Assembly: GCF_011492945.1 (NCBI RefSeq)
Contig: NZ_CP045119.1
Coordinates: 2,542,001-2,606,000 of the forward strand
Length of the DNA: 64,000 bases
Reading direction: 5' to 3'
DNA from: Rubrobacter tropicus
GTDB taxonomy: Bacteria; Actinomycetota; Rubrobacteria; Rubrobacterales; Rubrobacteraceae
Shown piece by piece: positions 7,903-19,744 of the stretch (positions are counted from its first letter, which is position 1; every line of letters begins with the position of its first letter). A program made the translations under genes and the position numbers. The notes beneath the pieces are model-generated. The model ran no database searches and was not told the origin of the DNA. It saw nothing but the letters and a program-made list of their open reading frames with translations.

Positions 7903-8319
7903 GAAGCTCCCGCGCGGCCTCTCGCACCCGCTCCTCTGATCTTTGTGCGCCCTCTTCAGAGACTATGTCCAGCAGTTCGGCGAGGTGTGGGGTCCAGGTA
8001 TCGACTGAGACGGGTTCGCCCGAGGCGATGCGGCCCGCGCCGTCCCGGATCATGCGGCTCGCGACCGCCACGAAGCGGGGCTCGTCTAACCTGGCTATGG
8101 TCTCCACGGAGAGCGCGTAGGCGTTGTCCCCGACCAGCACCCCGTCGTCCGTCGCGCCCCCGGGACCGCAGCCGTAGTGAGCGTCGAAGCCCCGCTGCAG
8201 GTGCCCGAGCGCCCGCGCCACGACCCCCGCGCGGTCGTGGCCTTCGGGCAGGCCGGCCGCGGCCTTCAGGAACAGGTCTTCCAGCGAGATGCCGGGCGTG
8301 CGCCTGGCGGTCTCTTCCA

Positions 8320-8320
<1 letters not shown>
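7886..8320 (-). CDS. Small HepS-like protein (possible non-catalytic polyprenyl synthase subunit)
   Basis: The ATG overlaps the hemL stop (ATGA) and gives 144 residues, predicted largely helical. GVLVGDNAYALSVETIARLD followed by EPRFVAVASRMIRDGAGR resembles the stretch TGDYLFAETFSGLAGIGDPR of the neighbouring polyprenyl synthase, but neither DDxxD motif is present. Its place directly before ubiE and the catalytic synthase is that of hepS (subunit 1 of heptaprenyl diphosphate synthase) in Firmicutes. I read it as a regulatory or chain-length-setting small subunit. It is shorter than classical HepS (about 250), so the assignment is tentative. Confidence 0.5.
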
Positions 8321-9603
<1,283 letters not shown>

Positions 9604-10191: not shown

Positions 10192-10866
10192 TTAGTCTTT
10201 GTGCCGACCGGTCAGCCAGGAGCACCACTCGTCGACGCCCCGGCCCGTCGCGGCGCTCGTGAGGATGCGTTCGACGCCGGGGTTCACGGCGTCCAGGTTG
10301 CGGAGGAACTTTTCGAGGTCGAAGTGCAGGTGCGGGAGGAGGTCCATCTTGTTTACGAGGACGAGGTCGGCCGAGCGGAACATCAGGGGGTACTTGAGAG
10401 GCTTCTCCTCACCCTCCGTGATCGCGTACACCATCACCCGGACGTCCTCCCCCACCTTGAACTCCGCCGGGCACACGAGGTTCCCGACGTTCTCTATGAC
10501 GAGCACGTCGATGTCGTGCAGCGGGAGCTCGGCGAGGCCGGAGCGGACCATGTTCGCGTCCAGGTGGCACTCGCCGCCGAAGCCGGCGCCGGTGTTTACC
10601 TGCACTATGGGGGCGTGAAAACGCGCGAGCCTGTCGGCGTCGAGCGTCGTCTGCACGTCGCCTTCGAGCACCCCGATCCTGACCTTTCCGAGCGTCCGGT
10701 CCAGCGTGTGCTCCAGGAGCGCGGTCTTTCCGGCGCCGGGCGAGCTCATCATGTTGACCACGAAGTTGCCGGCGTGGTCGAACGCCTGGCGGTTGGCCTG
10801 GGCGAGCGCGTCGTTGGCGTCGAGGACACCTTCGAGGACTACTTTTTTGACGGCGGTGCGGTGCAT
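10192..10866 (-). CDS. hypB: Hydrogenase nickel incorporation GTPase HypB
   Basis: HypB is the SIMIBI-class GTPase that with HypA delivers nickel to the hydrogenase large subunit. Walker A SSPGAGKTAL is at 41-50, the switch region includes GVLEGDVQTTLDA, NKMD gives base specificity, and ECHLDANMV retains the Cys-His metal site near the G domain. There is no N-terminal His-rich nickel store or CCxxC high-affinity site, so it is the short 224-residue form. It follows hypA across a short repeat element; GAGGGAGG provides the ribosome site. Confidence 0.95.
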   Translation of the reverse strand: MHRTAVKKVVLEGVLDANDALAQANRQAFDHAGNFVVNMMSSPGAGKTALLEHTLDRTLGKVRIGVLEGDVQTTLDADRLARFHAPIVQVNTGAGFGGECHLDANMVRSGLAELPLHDIDVLVIENVGNLVCPAEFKVGEDVRVMVYAITEGEEKPLKYPLMFRSADLVLVNKMDLLPHLHFDLEKFLRNLDAVNPGVERILTSAATGRGVDEWCSWLTGRHKD

Positions 10867-10885: not shown

Positions 10886-10921
10886 GGCGCTTTCAGCTAT
10901 CAGCCTTCGGCTATCAGCTTT
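10886..10921 (-). repeat. Short repeat unit between hypA and hypB
   Basis: On the minus strand the hypA end reads AAGCTGATAGCCGAAGGCTG followed by ATAGCTGAAAGC, the same iterated word as the large elements. It encodes the last hypA residues and its stop codon, then joins a leader CGCCGACCAGAGGGAGG before hypB. Confidence 0.7.
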
Positions 10922-11265
10922 TCGTCTTCCTGTCCTTCCATCTCCAATGATTCGACGTAGAGTTCTTCTCCCTGGGTGATCTCCAGGCTCGATGCTCCGC
11001 AAGCTTCGCATTGGAAGGGGAAGGTCTTGAGGGCGCTCTCGGCGCCGCATTCGCGGCACCGGCCGGTGGCGGGGACTTCTTCGAGGATCAGGGTTGCGCC
11101 TTCTATGGTCGTCCCTTGTGCCACGAGGTCGAAACTGAAGGTGAGGGCGGAGGGGACTACCTGGCGGAGGTGGCCGACTTTGAGGTAGACCTTCGTTACT
11201 TTGCGGCCTTCGGCGTGGCGGGCGGCGATGTCGACTACATGGCCGGCTATGGCTAGCTCGTGCAT
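10900..11265 (-). CDS. hypA: Hydrogenase maturation nickel metallochaperone HypA
   Basis: HypA binds nickel through its N-terminal MHEL (His2, Glu3) and partners with HypB. The zinc domain has two CxxC pairs at C70/C73 and C86/C89. At 121 residues it is of normal length. The last residues, EKLIAEG, are encoded by the intergenic repeat and are not a HypA family feature. It starts a few bases after the tandem-SIS gene stop. Confidence 0.95.
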   Translation of the reverse strand: MHELAIAGHVVDIAARHAEGRKVTKVYLKVGHLRQVVPSALTFSFDLVAQGTTIEGATLILEEVPATGRCRECGAESALKTFPFQCEACGASSLEITQGEELYVESLEMEGQEDEKLIAEG

Positions 11266-11268
11266 GGG

Positions 11269-12468
11269 TTATCCGGTCTTCCGAGGCGGGCCGTCTATCA
11301 GGCGGCGCAGGGTGTGGTAGATGGAGGCCTGGACCTCCTGGATGCGGGGGATGTAGTCCGAACGGACGACGATGGTGTGGTCGGCGAGGCCTTCGGCGAG
11401 GACGCGGCCCCCATCGTAGCCCAGGATCGCGACGGTCAGGAGGCCGCGTTTGCGGGCCTCGGCCAGGGCGGAGAGGATGTTCTTCGAGCCGCCGCTGGTC
11501 GAGAAGGCGACGGCCGCGTCTTCGGGCCTGGCGTGGGCTATGAGCTGGCGGGCGAAGATCGCCCCCGGGCCGATGTCGTTGGCGATGGCCGTGACGTTCG
11601 CCGGCTCGAACGAGAGCGAGACCGCCGGCACGGGGCGCAGCCCACAAGGCGGGTCCACGCAGTCGGCGGCCAGGTCGTTCGCGTCCGTGGCGGAACCGCC
11701 GTTGCCGAAGGCGATGATCTTGCCGCCGGCCCGCAGCCTCTCGGAGATCCCGCCGGCCGCCACCGAAATTCTCTCCGCCTCCGTCTCGGCCGCGAGCGCC
11801 CTTAGCCGGTTGGTCTCCCGCATCTTCTGGAGCATCGAACCCTGCACCTCTCCCACCACGGCTTCGAGCGGCTGCTCTCCCCTGCCGAGGAAAGGGTAGA
11901 GAAAAGACGAGCCGCCGACGTCGTGCCCCTGCTCCCTGTGCTCGAAGAACACGTGGACCGTCTCCCACAACACGTGGTAGAGGACCTCGAAGATCTCCTG
12001 GACTATAAATGGGTCCTCGTCCGGCGCCGCGAACGGGTGCTCCCCCGCCTCCCCCGTCAGGGCGAACGTCAGGGCCCCCGCCTCCCGCGCCGCTTTGAGC
12101 GACCTCTCGACCGCTTCGTCTCCCCCCGGGGACGCGAAGCCCATGACCATGTCTTGTGGCCGCAGCAGGACCGGCAGGCGTCTCTCGAAGTCCGGACCAA
12201 CGTCCAGGGCCGGGAGGGCGCGCTTGCCGACGATCACCGGGTGCACGAACTCGACGGAGACGTGCTCGGCGTCCGTCGCGGCCGATCCGTGGCCGAAGGC
12301 CAGTAGACGGCCGCCCGTCAAGAATCGGCGGGACATCTCCTTGCAGGCCTCGGCCAGCCGGGGTGCTTCCGCGTGGAAGAAGGATTCGAAGACCGGGTTG
12401 CGCCGGAGCAATTCTTCCCTGCTCCTGGCCGGGTTGGGGTTCGTGCCTGCCTGCCGGCCGTTGCTCAT
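11269..12468 (-). CDS. Tandem SIS-domain protein of the hyp cluster
   Basis: ATG at 12468 overlaps the upstream stop (ATGA) and gives 399 residues with two sugar-isomerase (SIS) domains. The second has the GmhA-like phosphosugar motifs FGNGGSATDANDLA and FSTSGGSKNI. The first keeps AFGHGSAATDAEHV but its later motif is ASPGGDEAV, suggesting a degenerate site. SIS domains bind or isomerise phosphosugars. Its position between hypE-cupin and hypA suggests a hydrogenase-related job that is not established; the ligand is unknown. Confidence 0.75.
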   Translation of the reverse strand: MSNGRQAGTNPNPARSREELLRRNPVFESFFHAEAPRLAEACKEMSRRFLTGGRLLAFGHGSAATDAEHVSVEFVHPVIVGKRALPALDVGPDFERRLPVLLRPQDMVMGFASPGGDEAVERSLKAAREAGALTFALTGEAGEHPFAAPDEDPFIVQEIFEVLYHVLWETVHVFFEHREQGHDVGGSSFLYPFLGRGEQPLEAVVGEVQGSMLQKMRETNRLRALAAETEAERISVAAGGISERLRAGGKIIAFGNGGSATDANDLAADCVDPPCGLRPVPAVSLSFEPANVTAIANDIGPGAIFARQLIAHARPEDAAVAFSTSGGSKNILSALAEARKRGLLTVAILGYDGGRVLAEGLADHTIVVRSDYIPRIQEVQASIYHTLRRLIDGPPRKTG

Positions 12469-12989
12469 GAGATCCACGATCCGACTTTGCCGAGCTCGGT
12501 CCACGAGCCGCCGGTCTTGGAGAACAGCCGGTAGCCGCCCGAGCCGACGTTCCAATCGAACTGCTGTCCGGCGTAGATCAGGGCCTGCGTCACCCGCCGG
12601 TCGAGCCCGACCCGCGAGAACCTGAGCGTCCCGTCCGAGCCCGGGAACATCCGGCGAAAACGCTCCCACCCGTCCCCATCCCTGAAGACGCGACGAAATT
12701 CCTCGTCGCCAACGCAGGTAAATCGTCCCTCCGGGTCGAAATCTGGTTCGATCGGGCGCCTCTCGCGGTTCTTGACCACAAAATCGGCCAGCGTCTCTTC
12801 GCCGAGGCCCTCCAGGTTCTCCCGCAGGTAAGAGAGCATACGCTCCTCGTCAACACCACCCCGCAACCCGCTGGTGGTCAAAGCGCGGACCACCTGGCCG
12901 GCGCCGACGTACAGACGGTCGAGGCAGGCATCCAGGACCTCCCGTTCGTCCGAGATGGTCCCGTTGAAGTGCGGGTGGGGCCTGTTCAT
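12465..12989 (-). CDS. Unknown protein of the hyp cluster (174 aa)
   Basis: I do not recognise this family. The 174 residues are soluble and acidic, with a helical N-terminal half (SDEREVLDACLDRLYVGAGQ) and a C-terminal half with several aromatic turns (FDWNVGSGGYRLFSK). There are no Cys pairs, signal peptide or membrane segments. It starts three bases after the cupin stop and overlaps the SIS gene start, so the three are probably translated as a coupled set. Confidence 0.6.
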   Translation of the reverse strand: MNRPHPHFNGTISDEREVLDACLDRLYVGAGQVVRALTTSGLRGGVDEERMLSYLRENLEGLGEETLADFVVKNRERRPIEPDFDPEGRFTCVGDEEFRRVFRDGDGWERFRRMFPGSDGTLRFSRVGLDRRVTQALIYAGQQFDWNVGSGGYRLFSKTGGSWTELGKVGSWIS

Positions 12990-12992
12990 GGT

Positions 12993-13478
12993 TCATTCTA
13001 CCTCCAGGGGTGGTCCGGTGACCTCCATGCCGTGGGAGCGGAACAGGCCGCGGAGTTCTTCGCTTGATGGTGCTCCCTTTACCCCCGACATCGCTTCGAA
13101 GAAGGCCTCCATCCCGCCCGCGGGCCGGAAGGCGAGGATCAACCTGCCCGTTCCTTCGCCGACATGGGCCCAAACGTGGGGTATCTCTCTCGGCGCGAAG
13201 ATGGAATCTCCGGGGTCCAATCGGTAACGTTCGTCGCCGATCTCGACGACGTACTCGCCCTCTACTACGTAGAACCACTCCTCCTGCCCGTGGTGGAGGT
13301 GCCGCGGCGGCCCGCCTTTGGAGCCGTTGGTGTTCTCTATGATCAAGAGTTCCCCGCCCGTCTCCGAACCGGACACCTTGCGGTCGATGGACATGGTGCC
13401 CAAAACCTTGCGTGGCTTTCGGAACCGGTCCCCGCCCGCCGGGACGAGGGCGCTCCGATCCGTCTGGCGTTCGGCCAA
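12993..13478 (-). CDS. Cupin-domain protein of the hyp cluster
   Basis: A single cupin barrel: PPRHLHHGQEEWFYVVEGEY supplies His, His and Glu of motif 1, and DPGDSIFAPREIPHVW supplies the motif 2 His. Metal binding is therefore likely. TTG at 13478 with GAGAGG eight bases upstream is the best start and keeps the conserved VPAGGDRFRKPR N-terminus. It follows hypE by 16 bases. Cupins of this type are sensors, isomerases or dioxygenases; the function in hydrogenase maturation is unknown. Confidence 0.8.
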   Translation of the reverse strand: MAERQTDRSALVPAGGDRFRKPRKVLGTMSIDRKVSGSETGGELLIIENTNGSKGGPPRHLHHGQEEWFYVVEGEYVVEIGDERYRLDPGDSIFAPREIPHVWAHVGEGTGRLILAFRPAGGMEAFFEAMSGVKGAPSSEELRGLFRSHGMEVTGPPLEVE

Positions 13479-13494: not shown

Positions 13495-14562
13495 TCAACA
13501 GATCCTCGGCAACGGGTCTCCGACGAGCATGTCTATCATCCTGGTGCCTCCGAACTGGGTGTGCATCAGGACCATGCGCGCGGGCTCCTCGCGCACCTCG
13601 CCGATGATGGACGCCTCCCCCCCGCCCTCGACGGCTCGTAGCGCCTCCAGCGCGGCATCGGCCCGCCCCGGATCGACGACGGCGAGTAGCTTGCCCTCGT
13701 TGGCCACGTAGAGCGGGTCCATGCCGAGTATTTCGCACGCCCCGTTGACGACGTCCCGGATCGGGATTCTCTCTTCCCACAACGCCACGCTGTATCCGGA
13801 GTCGCGGGCGAGCTCGTTTAGCACGGTCCCCGCGCCGCCGCGCGTCGGGTCGCGCATGAAGCGGAGGCCGGGACCCGCGACGCCCTTCAAGGCGTCTACC
13901 AGGGGGGTCAGCGGTCTGGTGTCCGAGGGGACTTCGGCTTCCAGTTCGAGGTCCCCGCGCGCGATCAGGATGGCGGCCCCATGATCCCCCAGAGTGCCGG
14001 AGCAGAGGATCCTGTCCCCCGGCCGCACGGACGAGGAAGACAGGTTCAACCCGGGGTCAACTATCCCGATGCCGGTCGTGATCACGTACAGCCCGTCGCC
14101 CTTGCCGCGCTCGACGACCTTGGTGTCGCCTGTTGCGACCGGAACCCCGGCCCGTTCGGCGGCCCGGCCCATCGCCCCGACCTCGCGCGCGAGGATCTCC
14201 GTATCGAGCCCCTCCTCGACGATCAGGGCCGCCGAGAGTCCGATCGGCGTCGCCCCGGAGACGGCCAGGTCGTTGACGGTACCGTTGACGGCGAGCTCGC
14301 CGATGGATCCGCCGGGGAAGACGAGCGGGCGCACGACGTAGGAGTCTGTGGTCAGGGCCAGGCGCGCGTCGCCGTGAGGCAGTATCGCAGCGTCCGAGAG
14401 CGGGGCCAACGCCGGGTTGTCCAACGCCGGCAGCAAGAGGCTCTCGATCAGCTTGTGCGTGGCCTTGCCCCCGGCCCCGTGGCTCATGTCTATGCGCGGC
14501 GCGTCGAACCTCGGCGGACGGCGCCCCGGTCGCGCGCCGGCGGGTTCGAAACCCGTGCCCAC
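13495..14562 (-). CDS. hypE: Hydrogenase maturation protein HypE
   Basis: HypE dehydrates the thiocarboxamide on its own C-terminal Cys to a thiocyanate, the source of cyanide ligands. MSHGAGGKATHKLIE at the N-terminus, TTDSYVVRPLVFPGGSIGEL, MRDPTRGG and the obligate C-terminal PRIC are all present. GTG at 14562 gives 355 residues; TTG at 14580, overlapping the hypD stop as TTGA, is an alternative. The family relates to PurM and SelD, but the final Cys and context make it HypE. Confidence 0.95.
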   Translation of the reverse strand: MGTGFEPAGARPGRRPPRFDAPRIDMSHGAGGKATHKLIESLLLPALDNPALAPLSDAAILPHGDARLALTTDSYVVRPLVFPGGSIGELAVNGTVNDLAVSGATPIGLSAALIVEEGLDTEILAREVGAMGRAAERAGVPVATGDTKVVERGKGDGLYVITTGIGIVDPGLNLSSSSVRPGDRILCSGTLGDHGAAILIARGDLELEAEVPSDTRPLTPLVDALKGVAGPGLRFMRDPTRGGAGTVLNELARDSGYSVALWEERIPIRDVVNGACEILGMDPLYVANEGKLLAVVDPGRADAALEALRAVEGGGEASIIGEVREEPARMVLMHTQFGGTRMIDMLVGDPLPRIC

Positions 14563-14576
14563 CGTGTCGTTGCCGG

Positions 14577-15704
14577 TCAATTTCTGGAGCCTATCTCGAC
14601 CCTTTCGTGGGACTTGCGCCCGAAGTTGTAGTAGGCGGCGCAGGCACCTTCTGAGGAGACCATGAGCGCGCCTAGCGGACGCTCGGGCGTGCAGGCGGTG
14701 CCGAAGACCTTGCACTCCGGGGGCTTGAGGACGCCTTTGAGGACCTCGCCGCACTGGCAGGCCTTCGGGTCGGCGACGCGCACGCCCGGCACGGAGAACC
14801 GCTTCTCGGCGTCGAAGTCCGCGTACTCCTCCGACAGCTTCAACGCCGACTGGGCTATAAAGCCCAGGCCCCGCCACTCGAAGTACGGCCGGAGCTCGAA
14901 GACCTCGGCCATGCTGCGCAGGGCCGCCAGGTTGCCCTCCCAGGGGACGATGCGGCTGTACTGGTTCTCGACCTCGCAGCGCCCCTCTTCGAGCTGCCGC
15001 ATCAACATCAGGACGGACTGCAAGAGGTCGAGCGGCTCGAACCCGGCGACCACGCAGGGCTTGCCGTAGTCTTCGGGCATAAACTCGTAGGGGCGGCAGC
15101 CTATGACGGTGGAGACGTGTCCCGGTCCCACGAATGCGTCGAGCCTCAGGTCGGGCGAGTCGAGGAGCGCCCGCACGGGGGGCACGATGGTGACGTGGTT
15201 GCAGAAGACCGAGAAGTTCGGGAGGCCTTCCTTCCTGGCGCGTTGTAGGGTGAGCGCCGTCGAGGGTGCCGTCGTCTCGAAGCCTATGGCGTAGAAGACC
15301 ACCTCGCGGTCGGGGTTCTCGCGGGCGATGCGCAGGGCGTCCAGCGGGGAGTAGACCATCCTGACGTCGGCGCCTTCGGCCTTCATTTCGAGCAGGTTAC
15401 CTTTGGAGCCGGGGACGCGCATCATGTCGCCGAAGCAGGTAAAGATGACCTCGGGGCGCTCGGCGACGGAGATGCCCTCGTCGACGCGGCCCATCGGGAG
15501 GACGCAGACCGGGCAGCCCGGGCCGTGGACGAGCTCCACCTGATCCGGCAGGAGGTCCTTTATGCCGTGGCGGTAGATGGTGTGGGTGTGGCCGCCGCAG
15601 ACCTCCATAACCTTGTAGTGGCGGTCGGGTTCGGCGACGGAGGCTATCTCGGCGGCCACCGCGCGGGCGATCTCACCGTCCCTGAACTCGCTTACGTATT
15701 TGAT
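14577..15704 (-). CDS. hypD: Hydrogenase maturation Fe-S protein HypD (apparent ATC start)
   Basis: HypD is the 4Fe-4S scaffold on which Fe(CN)2CO is built with HypC and HypE. EVCGGHTHTIYRHG, HGPGCPVCVLP, FEPLDLLQS and the C-terminal CQCGEVLKG are present. The conserved N-terminus KYVSEFRDGEIARA lies upstream of the first canonical start (GTG, 15659) and is preceded by ATC at 15704 with GGGAG five bases before it. Starting there gives 375 residues, close to the roughly 373 typical of the family. No ATG, GTG or TTG occurs in that stretch, so ATC initiation or a point error is likely. Confidence 0.92.
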   Translation of the reverse strand: MKYVSEFRDGEIARAVAAEIASVAEPDRHYKVMEVCGGHTHTIYRHGIKDLLPDQVELVHGPGCPVCVLPMGRVDEGISVAERPEVIFTCFGDMMRVPGSKGNLLEMKAEGADVRMVYSPLDALRIARENPDREVVFYAIGFETTAPSTALTLQRARKEGLPNFSVFCNHVTIVPPVRALLDSPDLRLDAFVGPGHVSTVIGCRPYEFMPEDYGKPCVVAGFEPLDLLQSVLMLMRQLEEGRCEVENQYSRIVPWEGNLAALRSMAEVFELRPYFEWRGLGFIAQSALKLSEEYADFDAEKRFSVPGVRVADPKACQCGEVLKGVLKPPECKVFGTACTPERPLGALMVSSEGACAAYYNFGRKSHERVEIGSRN

Positions 15705-15721: not shown

Positions 15722-15752
15722 GCTTAGCTGTCAGCTTTCAGCCGTCAGCTTT
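15722..15752 (-). repeat. Short repeat unit between second hypC and hypD
   Basis: Minus-strand AAGCTGACGGCTGAAAGCTG followed by ACAGCTAAGC. It supplies the last codons and stop of the upstream hypC-family gene and then leads into ACCGAAGGGAGCGACC just before the hypD ATC. Confidence 0.7.
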
Positions 15753-15982
15753 TGCTGGCCTACTTTGGCTATAGCTGCCCCGCCGTGGGTTAGTAGGGTT
15801 TCGCCTACGCTTACCGGGGAGACCAGTTCTATGGCCACTGTGGTCCGGTTGCCGGAGGCGTCTTCGCAGGTGGCGTCGTCGCCGGCGATGGAGACGACCC
15901 TGAGGGGGATGCCGGCGTCGGAGCAGACGATGCAGCCCTCGTGGGTCGTGGTGCAAGAGTTGGTGTAGGTGGAGTTTTCCAT
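15731..15982 (-). CDS. HypC/HupF-family protein, second copy
   Basis: An 83-residue HypC-like chaperone with an N-terminal extension: the conserved Cys is not residue 2 but lies in CTTTHEGCIVCSDAGIPLRV. VSVGETLLTHGGAAIAKV matches the HypC core. This form, with Cys and His residues ahead of the core, is what I recall from actinobacterial uptake-hydrogenase clusters. It starts two bases after hypC. The C-terminal KLTAES is encoded by the repeat element. It may pair with HypD for a different client or step than the canonical HypC; this is inference. Confidence 0.8.
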   Translation of the reverse strand: MENSTYTNSCTTTHEGCIVCSDAGIPLRVVSIAGDDATCEDASGNRTTVAIELVSPVSVGETLLTHGGAAIAKVGQQKLTAES

Positions 15983-15984
15983 GA

Positions 15985-16263
15985 TCACTCTATCTGGGAG
16001 GTTCTTAGTTCTTCCAGTTCGGCCTCGTAGGCGTCTCCGAGCTCCCGCAGGGCGTCGAGGGTCGCCCGCGCTTCGGCTTCGTCCAGCTTGGACATCGCGA
16101 AGCCCACGTGGATCAGGACCCAGTCCCCGACTTCTAAGCTCTCGTCCTCGTTGTGGACGAGGCCTATGTTTATGTTGCGGCGGACGCCGCTCACCTCCGC
16201 CTTGGCGAGGAGAAGGTCTTCGTCCAGGATCTCCACGACCCTCCCCGGTATTCCCAGGCACAT
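15985..16263 (-). CDS. hypC: Hydrogenase maturation chaperone HypC
   Basis: The canonical form begins MCLGIPGRV, with the catalytic Cys2 exposed after Met removal. HypC carries iron with HypD and docks on the large subunit precursor. The 92 residues include EVGDWVLIHVGFAMSKLDE and a helical C-terminus. GGGAGG six bases before the ATG is a good ribosome site, in a leader shared with other repeat-linked genes. Confidence 0.95.
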   Translation of the reverse strand: MCLGIPGRVVEILDEDLLLAKAEVSGVRRNINIGLVHNEDESLEVGDWVLIHVGFAMSKLDEAEARATLDALRELGDAYEAELEELRTSQIE

Positions 16264-16286: not shown

Positions 16287-16335
16287 CTTTCAGACGTCAG
16301 CTTTCAGCTATCAGCTTTCAGCTTGTTTGCGAAGG
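16287..16335 (-). repeat. Repeat unit between hypF and hypC
   Basis: On the minus strand AAGCTGAAAGCTGATAGCTG is followed by AAAGCTGACGTCTGAAAGC. The first part codes for the last hypF residues and contains its TGA stop. It is joined to GCCGACCGAAGGGAGG, the hypC ribosome-binding leader. Confidence 0.75.
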
Positions 16336-18607
16336 CTCTATCCGCCAGTATTGCCTGGCCCAGCGCCAGGCCTCCGTCGTTGGTTGGGACTCTTCGGTGT
16401 GTGTGGATGGCGAACCCTCCTTCTTTTAGAAGCTTCATAGTCTGTCCCGTCAGGAGCGCGTTCTGGAATGTTCCGCCGGAGAGGGCCACGATGCCCACTC
16501 CCGTCGACTCGCGAATTGTCTCGCAGCAGGCAGCGACCACCTCGGCCATCGTTCGGTGGAACTTCGCGGAGATTTCGGCCGCCTTTCGGCCCGCCTTGAG
16601 GTCTTCGACCGCCCCGGCGATGATGCCGTTCGTCTCGACGACCGAACACGGGTCTTCTGGCCGCAACCAGAAAGGGTACGCCTCGGTCGTGGGGCCTTCG
16701 GCGGCCAGCTCCAGCTCGACGGCGGCCCGGCCCTCGTAGGTCGCGCGGGTGCTGCCGGGGACGCCGACGAGCGCGGCTACGGCGTCGAAGAGGCGGCCGG
16801 CGCTGGAGGTCGGCGGGGTGTTGAGCTGGCGCTCTATCAGGCGCGAGATGAGCCGCACGTTGGTCTCGCCGGCCCGCCGGACGGTCTTGAGGGGGAGCTT
16901 CAGGGTGTCTTCTTCGCCGTAGAGGGCGAGGAGGTGGGCCAGCGCCACGCGCCACGGCTGGCGGATGGCCGCGGCTCCGCCGGGGAGGGGCGCGTACTGG
17001 AGGTGGGCCAGGCGTGTGAAGCCCTCCTCCACGCTGCCCCCGAAGAACTCGCCGCCCCAGACGGCGCCGTCGGGTCCGTAGCCGGTGCCGTCGAGGGCTA
17101 CCCCGATCACGTACTCGCCCGACGGGCGGTCGTTGTCCGCCAGACAACTCGCGACGTGCGCGTGGTGGTGCTGGACGCCCACGGCCGGCATCCCGGCCTC
17201 TTCGAGCTCGCGGGCGTACTTGGTCGATAGGTACTCGGGGTGCAGGTCGTGGGCGACGAGATCCGGCCGCACGTCGAAGAGGCCGCAGTAATGTTCGATG
17301 CCCTCCCTGAAGGACCGCAGGGTCTCGTAGTTCTCGAGGTCCCCTACGTGGTGGCTCGGGAAGGCGTGGTTTCCCCGGGCAAGGGCGAAGGTGTTCTTCA
17401 GCTCCCCTCCGACCGCGAGGACCTGCCTGCCAAAAGGCTCCGTGAGTCGCAACGGGGCCGGGGCGTAGCCGCGGGACCTCCTGAGCGGATAGGGACGTCC
17501 GCCGAGAACGCGTACGACGCTGTCGTCGCAGCGCACGTGGACCGGTCTGTCGTGGACCAGGTAGAAGTCGGCTATGTCCCCGAGCTGGCCGAGGGCCTCG
17601 TCGTCCCGGTAGGCTATCGGCTCGTCCGAGTTGTTCCCGCTCGTCATGACCAACGGGATGCCGGAACCGTCCAGCAGCAGGTGGTGCAGCGGCGTGTAGG
17701 CGAGCATGACGCCGAGCGTCTTCTGGCGGGGGGCGACCCGTTCGCTGATGCCGACATCACTCCGGCGCTCCAGGAGCACTATCGGACGCGTCGGGGAGGT
17801 CAGCAAAGTTTCTTCGTCCGGTCCGATGTGACAGAGCAGTCTCGCCTGGTCTATATCCCGGGCCATCAGCGCGAAGGGTTTGTCCCGGCGCGCCTTGCGG
17901 CCCCTCAGGGTCCTCACGGCGCGGTCGTCGAAGGGGTCGCAGGCGAGGTGGTAGCCGCCGAGGCCCTTGACCGCCAGGATCGCCCGCCCCCGCAGCATCC
18001 GCGCCGCGCTCGCGATGGGATCCCCCGCTGCCAACTCGTGGCCGAACCTGTCGAGCAGCCTCACCCGCGGGCCGCAGGTCGGGCAGGCGTTTGGCTGGGC
18101 GTGGAAGCGCCGGTCGGCGGGGTCGTGGTACTCGCGGTCGCAGTCGGGGCACATCCCGAAGGAGGACATGGTGGTCGTGGCGCGGTCGTAGGGGACCTGG
18201 CGCGTTATGGTGAAGCGCGGGCCGCAGCTAGTGCAGTTGATGAAGGGGTATCGGTGGCGCCGGTCGGAGGGGTCGAAAAGCTCCGCCAGGCAGTCGCCGC
18301 AGGTGGCGACGTCGGGAGAGACGAGGGCGCTGCGGCTCGTTGCCTCCCTGCTCTCCTCGATCCTGAACCCGTCCTCACCGACGAGCGGGAGAGGGCTCCA
18401 AGAGACCGATTCGACCACGGCCAGCGGCGGGGGGTCTTTCTCTATGGCTCGGGTGAAGAGTTCGAGACCCTCAGAATGGCCCTCCGCCTCGATGCGAACG
18501 CCGTCTGCGTCGTTGCGGACAAGACCGGCGATTCCGTGCCGGCGCGCGAGGGCGTAGACGAACGGGCGGAAGCCGACCCCTTGCACGATGCCGCGCACGG
18601 AGATCAC
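16304..18607 (-). CDS. hypF: Carbamoyltransferase HypF
   Basis: HypF makes carbamoyl-AMP from carbamoyl phosphate and ATP and passes it to HypE. Domains run acylphosphatase (1-90, GIVQGVGFRPFVYALA), two zinc motifs (CGDC then CTSC; CPDC then CPTC, about 105-185), a YrdC-like domain with LAVKGLGGYHLACD, and a Kae1-like C-terminal domain with VQHHHAHVASCLADN and ALSGGTFQNALL. The length of 767 is normal. Start is GTG at 18607. The terminal NKLKADS is encoded by a repeat unit. Confidence 0.96.
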   Translation of the reverse strand: MISVRGIVQGVGFRPFVYALARRHGIAGLVRNDADGVRIEAEGHSEGLELFTRAIEKDPPPLAVVESVSWSPLPLVGEDGFRIEESREATSRSALVSPDVATCGDCLAELFDPSDRRHRYPFINCTSCGPRFTITRQVPYDRATTTMSSFGMCPDCDREYHDPADRRFHAQPNACPTCGPRVRLLDRFGHELAAGDPIASAARMLRGRAILAVKGLGGYHLACDPFDDRAVRTLRGRKARRDKPFALMARDIDQARLLCHIGPDEETLLTSPTRPIVLLERRSDVGISERVAPRQKTLGVMLAYTPLHHLLLDGSGIPLVMTSGNNSDEPIAYRDDEALGQLGDIADFYLVHDRPVHVRCDDSVVRVLGGRPYPLRRSRGYAPAPLRLTEPFGRQVLAVGGELKNTFALARGNHAFPSHHVGDLENYETLRSFREGIEHYCGLFDVRPDLVAHDLHPEYLSTKYARELEEAGMPAVGVQHHHAHVASCLADNDRPSGEYVIGVALDGTGYGPDGAVWGGEFFGGSVEEGFTRLAHLQYAPLPGGAAAIRQPWRVALAHLLALYGEEDTLKLPLKTVRRAGETNVRLISRLIERQLNTPPTSSAGRLFDAVAALVGVPGSTRATYEGRAAVELELAAEGPTTEAYPFWLRPEDPCSVVETNGIIAGAVEDLKAGRKAAEISAKFHRTMAEVVAACCETIRESTGVGIVALSGGTFQNALLTGQTMKLLKEGGFAIHTHRRVPTNDGGLALGQAILADRAFANKLKADS

Positions 18608-18775: not shown

Positions 18776-18925
18776 CTACATGGTCCTCATCTTCATGTAC
18801 CTCTTGAGCCCCGGCCATTGCACGACCATGGCGGCCACGGCCCACAGGACCAACCCGTAGAAGCCCAAGCGTAGCAGTGCCGTCGCCTTCAAGCTGAACC
18901 ACTTCCTTACATGGACGAGGCTCAT
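18776..18925 (-). CDS. Small single-span protein of hydrogenase cluster (DUF6893-like)
   Basis: ATG at 18925 overlaps the stop of the protease fragment (ATGA) and encodes 49 residues: a basic N-terminus, one hydrophobic helix (about 13-32), then the tail QWPGLKRYMKMRTM. The tail pattern (P-x-x-KRY-x-K-x-R-x-M) resembles the small DUF6893 proteins I associate with actinobacterial hydrogenase loci. The 168 bases between it and hypF hold a small CCTCTC-GAGAGG hairpin and no gene. Confidence 0.6.
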   Translation of the reverse strand: MSLVHVRKWFSLKATALLRLGFYGLVLWAVAAMVVQWPGLKRYMKMRTM

Positions 18926-19374
18926 CGCCCCGGCCCGACCTTGTCGCCCTCTTTGCCGATCTCCTCCACCAGCTTCGCCGCCTCTTCCACCGCCGCGCGC
19001 ACCGGCCAGATCAACCCCATCAGCATGTCGTCGTAGGGGTGGATCTCAGGCCCACCCCTACCCGGGATAACCCGCGGCTCGCAGCCCACCACGAGGATGC
19101 GTGCAGGGCCGGCGCCCGGGGCGCGGGACAGCTTGATCACCTTGACGGGGTCCATACCGTGGGTATCGAGCGCCGCCTCCCCGTCGTCCTCGATCTCCGG
19201 TTCGATGAGGTAGACCGTGCCGGGCTTCCCGCCCCGCGGGACGGCGTCCACGAGGACGACGAGCTCGTAATCGTCCAGCAGGGCGTAGGCGAGGTCCATC
19301 CCCCGGATCCCGAAGTCCCTGACCTCGACGCCCTCGGGCAACCCGCGACCGGCGAGCCGCGCCGGGACGGACAC
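18922..19374 (-). CDS. Hydrogenase maturation endopeptidase (M52), N-terminally truncated
   Basis: The frame matches HyaD/HycI-type proteases that clip the large-subunit C-terminus after nickel insertion: RDFGIRGMDLAYALLDDYEL, VVLVDAVPRGGKPGTVYLIE, and a late VRAAVEEAAKLVEE helix. The family's first about 25 residues, the GxGNxxxxDDGxG motif with a nickel-binding acid, are missing; the frame upstream reads unrelated residues and neither other frame restores the motif. GTG at 19374 has no Shine-Dalgarno. It is probably inactive or a pseudogene. Confidence 0.7.
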   Translation of the reverse strand: MSVPARLAGRGLPEGVEVRDFGIRGMDLAYALLDDYELVVLVDAVPRGGKPGTVYLIEPEIEDDGEAALDTHGMDPVKVIKLSRAPGAGPARILVVGCEPRVIPGRGGPEIHPYDDMLMGLIWPVRAAVEEAAKLVEEIGKEGDKVGPGR

Positions 19375-19375
19375 T

Positions 19376-19561
19376 TCAAGCCGGCGGCAGGTTCGGGCTG
19401 TTCGGGTCCACCGGGTTCCTGTCTCAGGCGTTGATGCTCGTGGATTTCCGGGCGTTGGACCTGGCGGTGTACTCGCCGGCCTTTTCGAGGCCCGGGTCCT
19501 TCCGGATGCCGCCTGGCGCGTTTCCCCGGCGCACCCCCTTCACGTGCGAGGGTGCGTCCAT
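19376..19561 (-). CDS. Small unknown protein with in-frame UGA codon
   Basis: From ATG at 19561 the frame gives 45 residues (start MDAPSHVKGVRRGNAPG, end KSTSINA), then TGA at 19426-19424, then 15 more residues DRNPVDPNSPNLPPA and a second TGA at 19376. The tail looks like conserved protein, with its regular Asn-Pro and Asp-Pro spacing, so the first TGA is either a nonsense mutation or a selenocysteine codon; selA, selB and tRNA-Sec are 7-10 kb away. It is the first gene of the hyp cluster. A start at ATG 19594 is also possible. Function unknown. Confidence 0.45.
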
Positions 19562-19744
19562 CTTCGTGTCCGGCCCGCCTACCCTTATCCCCATCCAAGA
19601 GCGACACCCGCCTTTCCCCTGCCGGATCGTGGCCCGCACTCCACAAGGCCTTCGACGAGACCCCACTCGCATTCCGTATTGCTCCTGCATCATACGTTAT
19701 TATGTTTTTGGCACAAGGCGTGACGGCAGGAATCGGGGGGCGGC

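Follow-up and report, generated by a model that had tools for sequence, protein, structure and literature searches.

The hydrogenase maturation (hyp) operon of Rubrobacter tropicus raises the question of what the additional genes inside it contribute to maturation. In a stretch of 64,000 nucleotides of this genome (contig NZ_CP045119.1, positions 2,542,001 to 2,606,000), which as a whole is called the window here, three open reading frames (ORFs) lie between hypE and hypA: a Cupin_2 gene, a gene of unknown family designated U, and a gene for a protein of 399 amino acids (aa) with two SIS domains in tandem, referred to as the SIS gene. The original prediction, made from the letters alone, was that this trio could serve an unassigned step in aerobic maturation. 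Sequence, neighbours and distribution suggest that the SIS gene is an overlooked part of hydrogenase maturation in oxygen-breathing bacteria. It is the core of the trio, which the cupin and U accompany in Rubrobacteraceae as optional extras. For the SIS gene the predicted step is well supported by its linkage to hyp genes, its fusion to a HypC-family domain, its co-inheritance with HypD and its association with oxidase genes.

Distribution of the SIS gene and its linkage to hyp genes

Among 346 Actinomycetota genomes, strong SIS matches were found in 43, and 40 of these 43 also carry HypD, which is present in 175 of the 346 overall (Fisher p 2.7e-10). The threshold for a strong match (E<=1e-38) was chosen after a gap in the scores was visible, and at most eight candidates were scored per genome. 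The SIS gene and HypD lie on one contig within 10 kb in 31 of the 40 genomes; seven of the remaining nine have them on different contigs, and for the other two, G054 and G249, the matches listed cover part of the HypD rows (G and L numbers are our handles for genomes and loci). Hyp-linked SIS pieces under the strong threshold were also observed in G077, G301 and G026.

Within the Rubrobacteraceae (39 genomes), SIS matches at E<=1e-100 were obtained in 18, of which 17 were near-full and one (G026) was of half length; SIS fragments occur in G001, G002, G020 and G032. HypD was found in 22 of the 39, once as a remnant. The SIS gene stands directly before hypA in nine loci, namely the window, L089, L091, L092, L103, L105, L110, L113 and L123. 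In G027, short hypD and SIS remnants lie side by side (L109), and because they adjoin, the two genes appear to have decayed together.

With the SIS protein as tblastn query, a search of 72,556 plasmid records revealed hyp-linked SIS genes in at least 19 records from Proteobacteria, Mycobacterium, Thermus and Sulfobacillus, the linkage being taken from nine regions inspected plus the record listings. Tandem SIS genes beside hyp genes are carried by a Thermus plasmid (62% identical) and, frameshifted, by a Sulfobacillus plasmid, and on a Mycobacterium intracellulare plasmid the hyp-linked SIS is split over two genes. Single-domain SIS genes just before hypD were found on plasmids of Sphingopyxis, Afipia, Cupriavidus (pHG1, operon at 69.7 kb), Bradyrhizobium, Mesorhizobium and Methylocystis. 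No hyp linkage was seen in the region of a Deinococcus plasmid match, nor, judged by annotation only, for many plain GmhA/DiaA plasmid matches listed. Proteobacteria have the single-domain form of the SIS gene, and Actinobacteria, Thermus and Sulfobacillus have it in tandem or split form; the hyp linkage of the gene is conserved across four phyla. In this linkage across lineages, to which L118 and plain GmhA such as L132 are exceptions, and in the Hyp fusion in six loci, the SIS gene resembles a Hyp-type maturation factor. A small glutaredoxin-like gene was also observed after the tandem SIS gene and before hypF in Thermus (L126 13136-13396) and Sulfobacillus (L127 11135-11362), that of Thermus being of the Uxx-star type.

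HypC2 and the HypD lineage

A further small gene between hypC and hypD (15731-15982), missed by the original prediction, encodes a second HypC-family protein, named HypC2 here. It belongs to the same PF01455 family as the HypC paralogues HoxL, HupF and HybG, and the scores against this model (cut-off 28.5) were 43.3 bits for the window, 36.2 for the relative in L088 and 43.8 for that in L126. HypC2 differs from those paralogues in its coupling to SIS, in its scores against TIGR00074 (cut-off 48), which are below the cut-off in L088 (31.7 bits) and L126 (35 bits), and in its N-terminus, where CxxCSDxG replaces the canonical MC..PG; most relatives have CxxC, then S, G or A, then D.

In six loci (L128 and L163-L167) HypC2 forms the C-terminal part of the SIS N-domain protein in one ORF. 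All six fusions exceed the PF01455 cut-off, and the L163 chain also exceeds that of SIS_2. One of them, NZ_CP012886.2 336271-336981 (L128 9962-10672), is annotated as a HypC-family chaperone although about two thirds of it is SIS N-domain; the annotation masks the fusion. HypC2-like sequence was found in all 31 non-proteobacterial HypD loci with SIS and in 12 of 13 loci without SIS from the same part of the HypD tree, and in none of the six proteobacterial single-SIS loci or the 21 loci outside the SIS-linked HypD part.

In the HypD tree of 71 rows, all 37 SIS-bearing rows fall inside one 50-row part, whose support (94/81) is just under the starred level. The rows were chosen by hand and comprise the SIS loci, 25 Actinomycetota loci without SIS (of 130 such genomes) and one Cupriavidus copy. 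The 13 rows without SIS in the 50-row part are eight Rubrobacteraceae contigs, most of them short, together with L198, L200, L201, L202 and L204; in L204, HypC2 is fused to a degenerate stretch resembling the SIS N-domain.

Group-1h large subunits at 71-80% to Cupriavidus occur in G074 and in four genomes from a single genus (f19 g35, 7.1-9.9 Mb). The HypD of these genomes is of another clade with no SIS near it, and HypX is present in three of the four. Because such similar 1h enzymes with the other HypD clade go without SIS, the SIS gene goes with the lineage of the HypD scaffold and not with the type of hydrogenase. The group labels (1h, 2a, 3) come from similarity to named records plus recall. 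A tie of SIS to one hydrogenase group was rejected, as the group-1h genomes G060, G074, G156, G195 and G205 lack it. The loci with large subunits of the M. intracellulare type likewise gave no strict tie, with L199 lacking SIS and L204 holding only the degenerate N-domain.

Residues of the two SIS domains

Pfam and NCBIfam detect only the C-terminal SIS domain, and homology and the tree identify the N-terminal half as a diverged SIS domain. The best NCBIfam model is gmhA (TIGR00441) with 144.4 bits, below the cut-off of 209.45; the single-domain relative of Cupriavidus scores 148.1. A structure model built from three sequences reached a predicted local distance difference test score (pLDDT) of 52.7 and had GmhA structures as best fold matches, and only the GmhA-like fold was taken from it. 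The protein probably descends from a GmhA-like phosphosugar isomerase.

In the E. coli-style numbering that we take to apply here, the zinc ligands are H61, E65, Q172 and H180 and the phosphate serines are S55, S119, S121 and S124. According to the accessible part of one report, the corresponding ligands in B. pseudomallei GmhA are H64, E68, Q175 and H183 (PMC5705639). The 43 N-domains and 43 C-domains (42 distinct sequences in each set) were gathered by homology with no motif selection, and four first-position split SIS genes were put into the N set by gene order and the tree. H61 and E65 are present in all 43 N-domains, H180 in 42 of 42 scored and Q172 in 31 of 42 scored, and the phosphate serines are largely missing there (S119 in 16, S121 in 3, S55 and S124 in none). 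The C-domains show the complementary loss: all four serines are kept in 43 of 43, H61 and E65 in none, and H180 in 38 of 42 scored. All zinc ligands and phosphate serines are found in the six single domains, bar one Ala at S124. The original prediction that one SIS domain keeps phosphosugar motifs and the other looks degenerate was right as far as it went, but the "degenerate" N-terminal half retains the metal residues that the C-terminal half has lost.

The N-domains also carry additional residues, a His at +3 after E65 and a Trp and a His after H180, which give the pattern HxxxExxH ... HxxWxxxH. These occur in 42 of 43 N-domains for the first His and 42 of 42 scored for the Trp and second His, and in all six single domains; the only N-domain without the +3 His belongs to a broken gene (L095). 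None of four distinct GmhA-like comparison sequences has the two His and the Trp, and in C-domains they are sporadic (the +3 His in 6 of 43, the Trp in 9, the +7 His in 3). In a tree whose rows were picked by motif, the 26 N-domain rows group together (99/99), as do the 24 C-domain rows (100/97), and the branching within the two clades is partly mirrored. This residue pattern points to one duplication, followed by a division of labour, and both halves may form one pocket.

Oxygen and HypX

Rubrobacter species are aerobes. Among HypD-bearing Actinomycetota outside the Rubrobacteraceae, the heme-copper oxidase gene COX1 was found in 26 of 27 genomes with SIS and in 32 of 130 without (p 1.3e-12), the related genomes in this test not being independent. 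The Rubrobacteraceae were left out since none of their genomes except G002 and G013 passed the COX1 threshold; the terminal oxidase of this family may be divergent.

HypX has been shown to be a formyl-tetrahydrofolate decarbonylase that makes carbon monoxide (CO), according to the available part of PMC12134894. Like HypX, the SIS protein would be an additional contributor to this pathway when maturation takes place in air, and the two have a largely non-overlapping distribution. They differ in domains, none of which was found to be shared: the SIS protein shows only SIS domains, without the formyl-transferase and enoyl-CoA-hydratase parts. HypX was found in 6 of the 346 Actinomycetota genomes. 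Among the 29 genomes whose group-1h large subunit reaches >=66% identity, SIS is present in 22 (G077 being counted from its locus), HypX in four, both in one and neither in four (Fisher p 0.034, confounded by lineage). Plasmid records with HypX numbered 42, against at least 19 with hyp-linked SIS. Nine records have both, 54-87 kb apart (two counted across the record start), and each of the nine has two HypD places; no operon with both SIS and HypX was found among the plasmid matches listed.

The hyp operon of R. tropicus

Features of the window are given below with coordinates, strand and evidence.

10192-10866, minus: hypB (PF02492 CobW/HypB/UreG, 74.5 bits; 75-86% identity and the same position in relatives)
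10900-11265, minus: hypA (Pfam/NCBIfam profile match)
11269-12468, minus: tandem-SIS gene, 399 aa (ORF, Pfam/NCBIfam and homology)
about 11272-11907, minus: SIS C-domain, putative phosphate-binding half
about 11908-12468, minus: SIS N-domain, metal-residue half
12465-12989, minus: U, 174 aa, unknown family, optional (ORF; no Pfam/NCBIfam match)
12993-13478, minus: Cupin_2 protein with complete metal set, optional (ORF and Pfam)
13495-14562, minus: hypE, start approximate (NCBIfam TIGR02124, 407 bits)
14577-15704, minus: hypD, with ATC at the expected start codon and the next in-frame GTG at 15659 (NCBIfam and relatives)
15731-15982, minus: HypC2, an 83-aa HypC-family paralogue with the CxxCSDxG motif, starting after the hypC stop (PF01455)
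15985-16263, minus: canonical hypC (Pfam/NCBIfam profile match)
16304-18607, minus: hypF, start perhaps further upstream (Pfam/NCBIfam profile match)
18922-19374, minus: hydrogenase maturation protease, N-terminally truncated (PF01750 HycI, 49.1 bits)
19424-19693, minus: small-gene remnant of a lost group-1h-type operon, abutting the truncated protease at the deletion scar

The gene order on the minus strand is protease-hypF-hypC-HypC2-hypD-hypE-cupin-U-SIS-hypA-hypB. The predicted placement of the three ORFs between hypE and hypA agrees with the profile matches of the neighbours hypE, hypA, hypD, hypC and hypF, and their coupling is confirmed by the coordinates: the cupin and U genes are 3 bases apart, U and SIS overlap by ATGA (12468-12465), and another 3 bases separate SIS from hypA.

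The protease lacks an N-terminus that is conserved in the relatives L094 and L095, which start further upstream. The region 18922-19693 is a deletion scar, at which group-1h-type hydrogenase genes were lost and the protease was truncated; it adjoins hemB (named by eye). At the expected start of hypD (15702-15704) the window has ATC, and L087 and L096 have ATG. The ATC could be a rare start or a sign of early decay.

The cupin scores 60.3 bits against PF07883 (gathering score 27.2), and a complete metal set is present, His/His/Glu/His being read directly from HLHHGQEE...PHVWAH; the original prediction had named a full metal triad. It was found in 7 of the 39 Rubrobacteraceae genomes (E<=1e-30), and five of its seven places are on a hyp-bearing contig. 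Between hypF and the protease, L102 (6370-6666, G017; Pfam) and L195 (2801-3097, G028) carry a different Cupin_2 gene, at 30-31% to that of the window.

U had no match in Pfam or NCBIfam at E<=0.001, and its structure model (pLDDT 42.5) was set aside. Among 99 relatives it is restricted to Rubrobacteraceae; its six named relatives are four Rubrobacter/Rubrobacteraceae sequences, one "Actinomycetota bacterium" and one weak partial match in a Gemmiger assembly (L014). It was found in 10 of the 39 genomes at 11 places, seven of them hyp-linked and four elsewhere. A U paralogue (51%) at L117 6815-7318 (G032:C65) is embedded in a molybdenum-hydroxylase operon from the CO-dehydrogenase family, with large, FAD and 2Fe-2S subunits, a MoxR-like AAA protein, CoxE, XdhC/CoxI and CoxG; the large subunit scores under the CO-dehydrogenase cut-off. 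With this paralogue, U recurs beside two trace-gas-type enzymes. Other U copies, at L122 6343-6822 and L115 8533-9027, adjoin aspartate-tRNA-ligase-like ORFs (by eye), and further off in both loci is a cysteine-desulfurase/NifU-type pair (by Pfam in L122, by eye in L115).

The interval between hypE and SIS gathers insertions in Rubrobacteraceae. By eye, L094 has a toxin-antitoxin-like pair there (8213-8832), and L095 (9123-10186) has transposase-like ORFs and SIS fragments flanking U on both sides.

Proposed function and alternative explanations

We propose that the SIS protein is dedicated to maturation and would cooperate with HypC2 at the HypD scaffold, the site of Fe(CN)2CO assembly; the organisms concerned would be those whose uptake hydrogenases mature in the presence of air. 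In Proteobacteria one SIS domain would hold the complete site; in this genome and its relatives the N-domain would supply the metal ligands and the C-domain the phosphate-binding serines of a shared site, with a bound metal and a sugar phosphate as the presumable ligand. A role as a factor of the HypC2/HypD scaffold is likely, and for the composite metal/phosphosugar site the chances are about even; to the scaffold factor and composite site combined, without a CO step, we assign a probability of roughly 0.55. The specific step we favour is that a phosphorylated carbon source furnishes the CO ligand on the spot, in place of HypX; this is the boldest form of the proposal and, on its own, well short of even odds. 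It is doubtful, too, whether there is a second, HypX-independent CO route in air, in which a GmhA-family SIS enzyme that depends on a metal and is attached to the scaffold by way of HypC2 would make CO or formyl-level carbon from a phosphorylated sugar or a C1 adduct.

Several observations weigh against this proposal. A search for large subunits found no group-1h large subunit in this genome. The one NiFe large subunit that was found (L104 7241-8539) most resembles the alpha subunits of sulfhydrogenases and scores under their cut-offs, so that the module may serve only this group-3-like enzyme or be decaying. The other ORFs of the hyp operon read open, so any such decay would be in an early phase. 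An additional SIS gene in G010 stands on a contig where no hyp gene was found (L118). Four oxidase-bearing genomes of the same HypD lineage (L198, L200, L201 and L202) go without SIS, and in G118, which has SIS and HypD, no COX1 passed the threshold. Strict complementarity of SIS and HypX was rejected and only a tendency is left, because HypX is rare, G118 carries both, and the group-1h genomes G205, G074, G046 and the incomplete G028 carry neither. The fold model is too poor to bear on the putative composite site. As to CO supply, GmhA chemistry is an isomerisation with no CO release, and the source of the CO ligand is reported as one-carbon metabolism in the available part of PMC12134894. 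The accessible portions of two further papers concern growth without oxygen: GmhA of Acidithiobacillus ferrooxidans is named among maturation proteins and is higher in anaerobic growth (PMC7735108), and DENSE ties GmhA to HypD/HypE in an anaerobe (PMC3231954).

The phosphate serines, present in every C-domain, would also suit a sensor or gate: a sugar phosphate bound by SIS would be the allosteric signal, and HypC2 would relay it so that the scaffold is switched with carbon status. SIS domains are often phosphosugar sensors, RccR and glucokinase regulatory protein are among the fold matches, the HypC2 fusion offers a route to the scaffold, and starvation turns on high-affinity hydrogenases. 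Glucokinase regulatory protein and similar proteins have two SIS domains in one chain, but the identity to the SIS protein is 12-13% and the family is different. DiaA is likewise an SIS_2 protein and is a binding partner (of the replication initiator DnaA) rather than an enzyme of sugar metabolism; it matches SIS more weakly. A pure sensor, however, need neither retain H61 and E65 throughout the N-domains nor gain two near-invariant His residues, and we regard this explanation as unlikely. Alternatively, the additional His residues could make the N-domain a binding site for iron (or nickel), by which iron would be delivered to HypC2/HypD or shielded there from oxygen. The near-invariance of HxxxExxH and HxxWxxxH in N- and single domains and their absence from the four GmhA-like sequences, the CxxC in HypC2 and the association with oxidase-bearing genomes all favour such a carrier or oxygen shield. 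It leaves the phosphate-binding serines of all C-domains unexplained, and the iron source reported for E. coli in the available part of PMC10847431 is the Isc machinery; this explanation, too, is improbable.

An ordinary GmhA-type heptose isomerase standing by chance beside hyp genes would account for gmhA being the best NCBIfam model and GmhA structures the best fold matches. The SIS protein indeed shares fold and sequence family with GmhA (SIS_2). It differs in the score below the curated cut-off, the division of the active-site residues between two domains here, the additional His at +3 and +7, the HypD gene within 10 kb (31 of 40 genomes) and the HypC-domain fusion (six loci); chance proximity is scarcely credible, and a role in heptose biosynthesis was not supported by the score and the split site, no search for heptose genes nearby having been made. 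The view of cupin, U and SIS as one three-gene unit, for example with a cupin dioxygenase making CO from the SIS product, has in its favour the coupled order in the window, the cupin-U adjacency that recurs in L111, the complete cupin metal set and the different Cupin_2 gene of L102. Some cupins, such as acireductone dioxygenase, do release CO. The unit is largely refuted as a general one, and very improbable, by the counts of the cupin (7/39) and U (10/39) against near-full SIS (17/39), and by the four of 11 U places elsewhere. A conserved trio was therefore rejected, and the prediction that the three genes together serve an unassigned step was not supported. It had also been stated that a wide occurrence of the trio apart from hyp genes would refute such a step; this applies in part to U and the cupin and leaves the SIS gene unaffected.

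Relation to published work and significance

The association of SIS with hyp genes is known from the accessible parts of published work, without a function. In Table 1 of PMC12727194, cluster 37 is a "SIS domain" cluster found near the large subunits of NiFe enzymes; a GmhA-HypD/HypE link is called "not well understood" (PMC3231954), and MSMEG_2706 gmhA is listed after hypE MSMEG_2705 (PMC5445863). By the gene order of L164, MSMEG_2706 is probably a SIS C-domain gene. High-affinity H2 oxidisers without HypX have also been noted (PMC4767420). The function of the hyp-linked SIS, its tandem anatomy and split site, the HypC2 fusion and the co-inheritance with HypD were not found in the open full-text literature, most subscription papers lying outside the search.

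SIS and HypC2 form a specific gene pair that marks many maturation sets without HypX, and the residue pattern gives grounds for a candidate active site. If the proposed role of the SIS protein on the HypC2/HypD scaffold is true, it would add a step to a well-studied maturation pathway and could aid the heterologous production of O2-tolerant hydrogenases.

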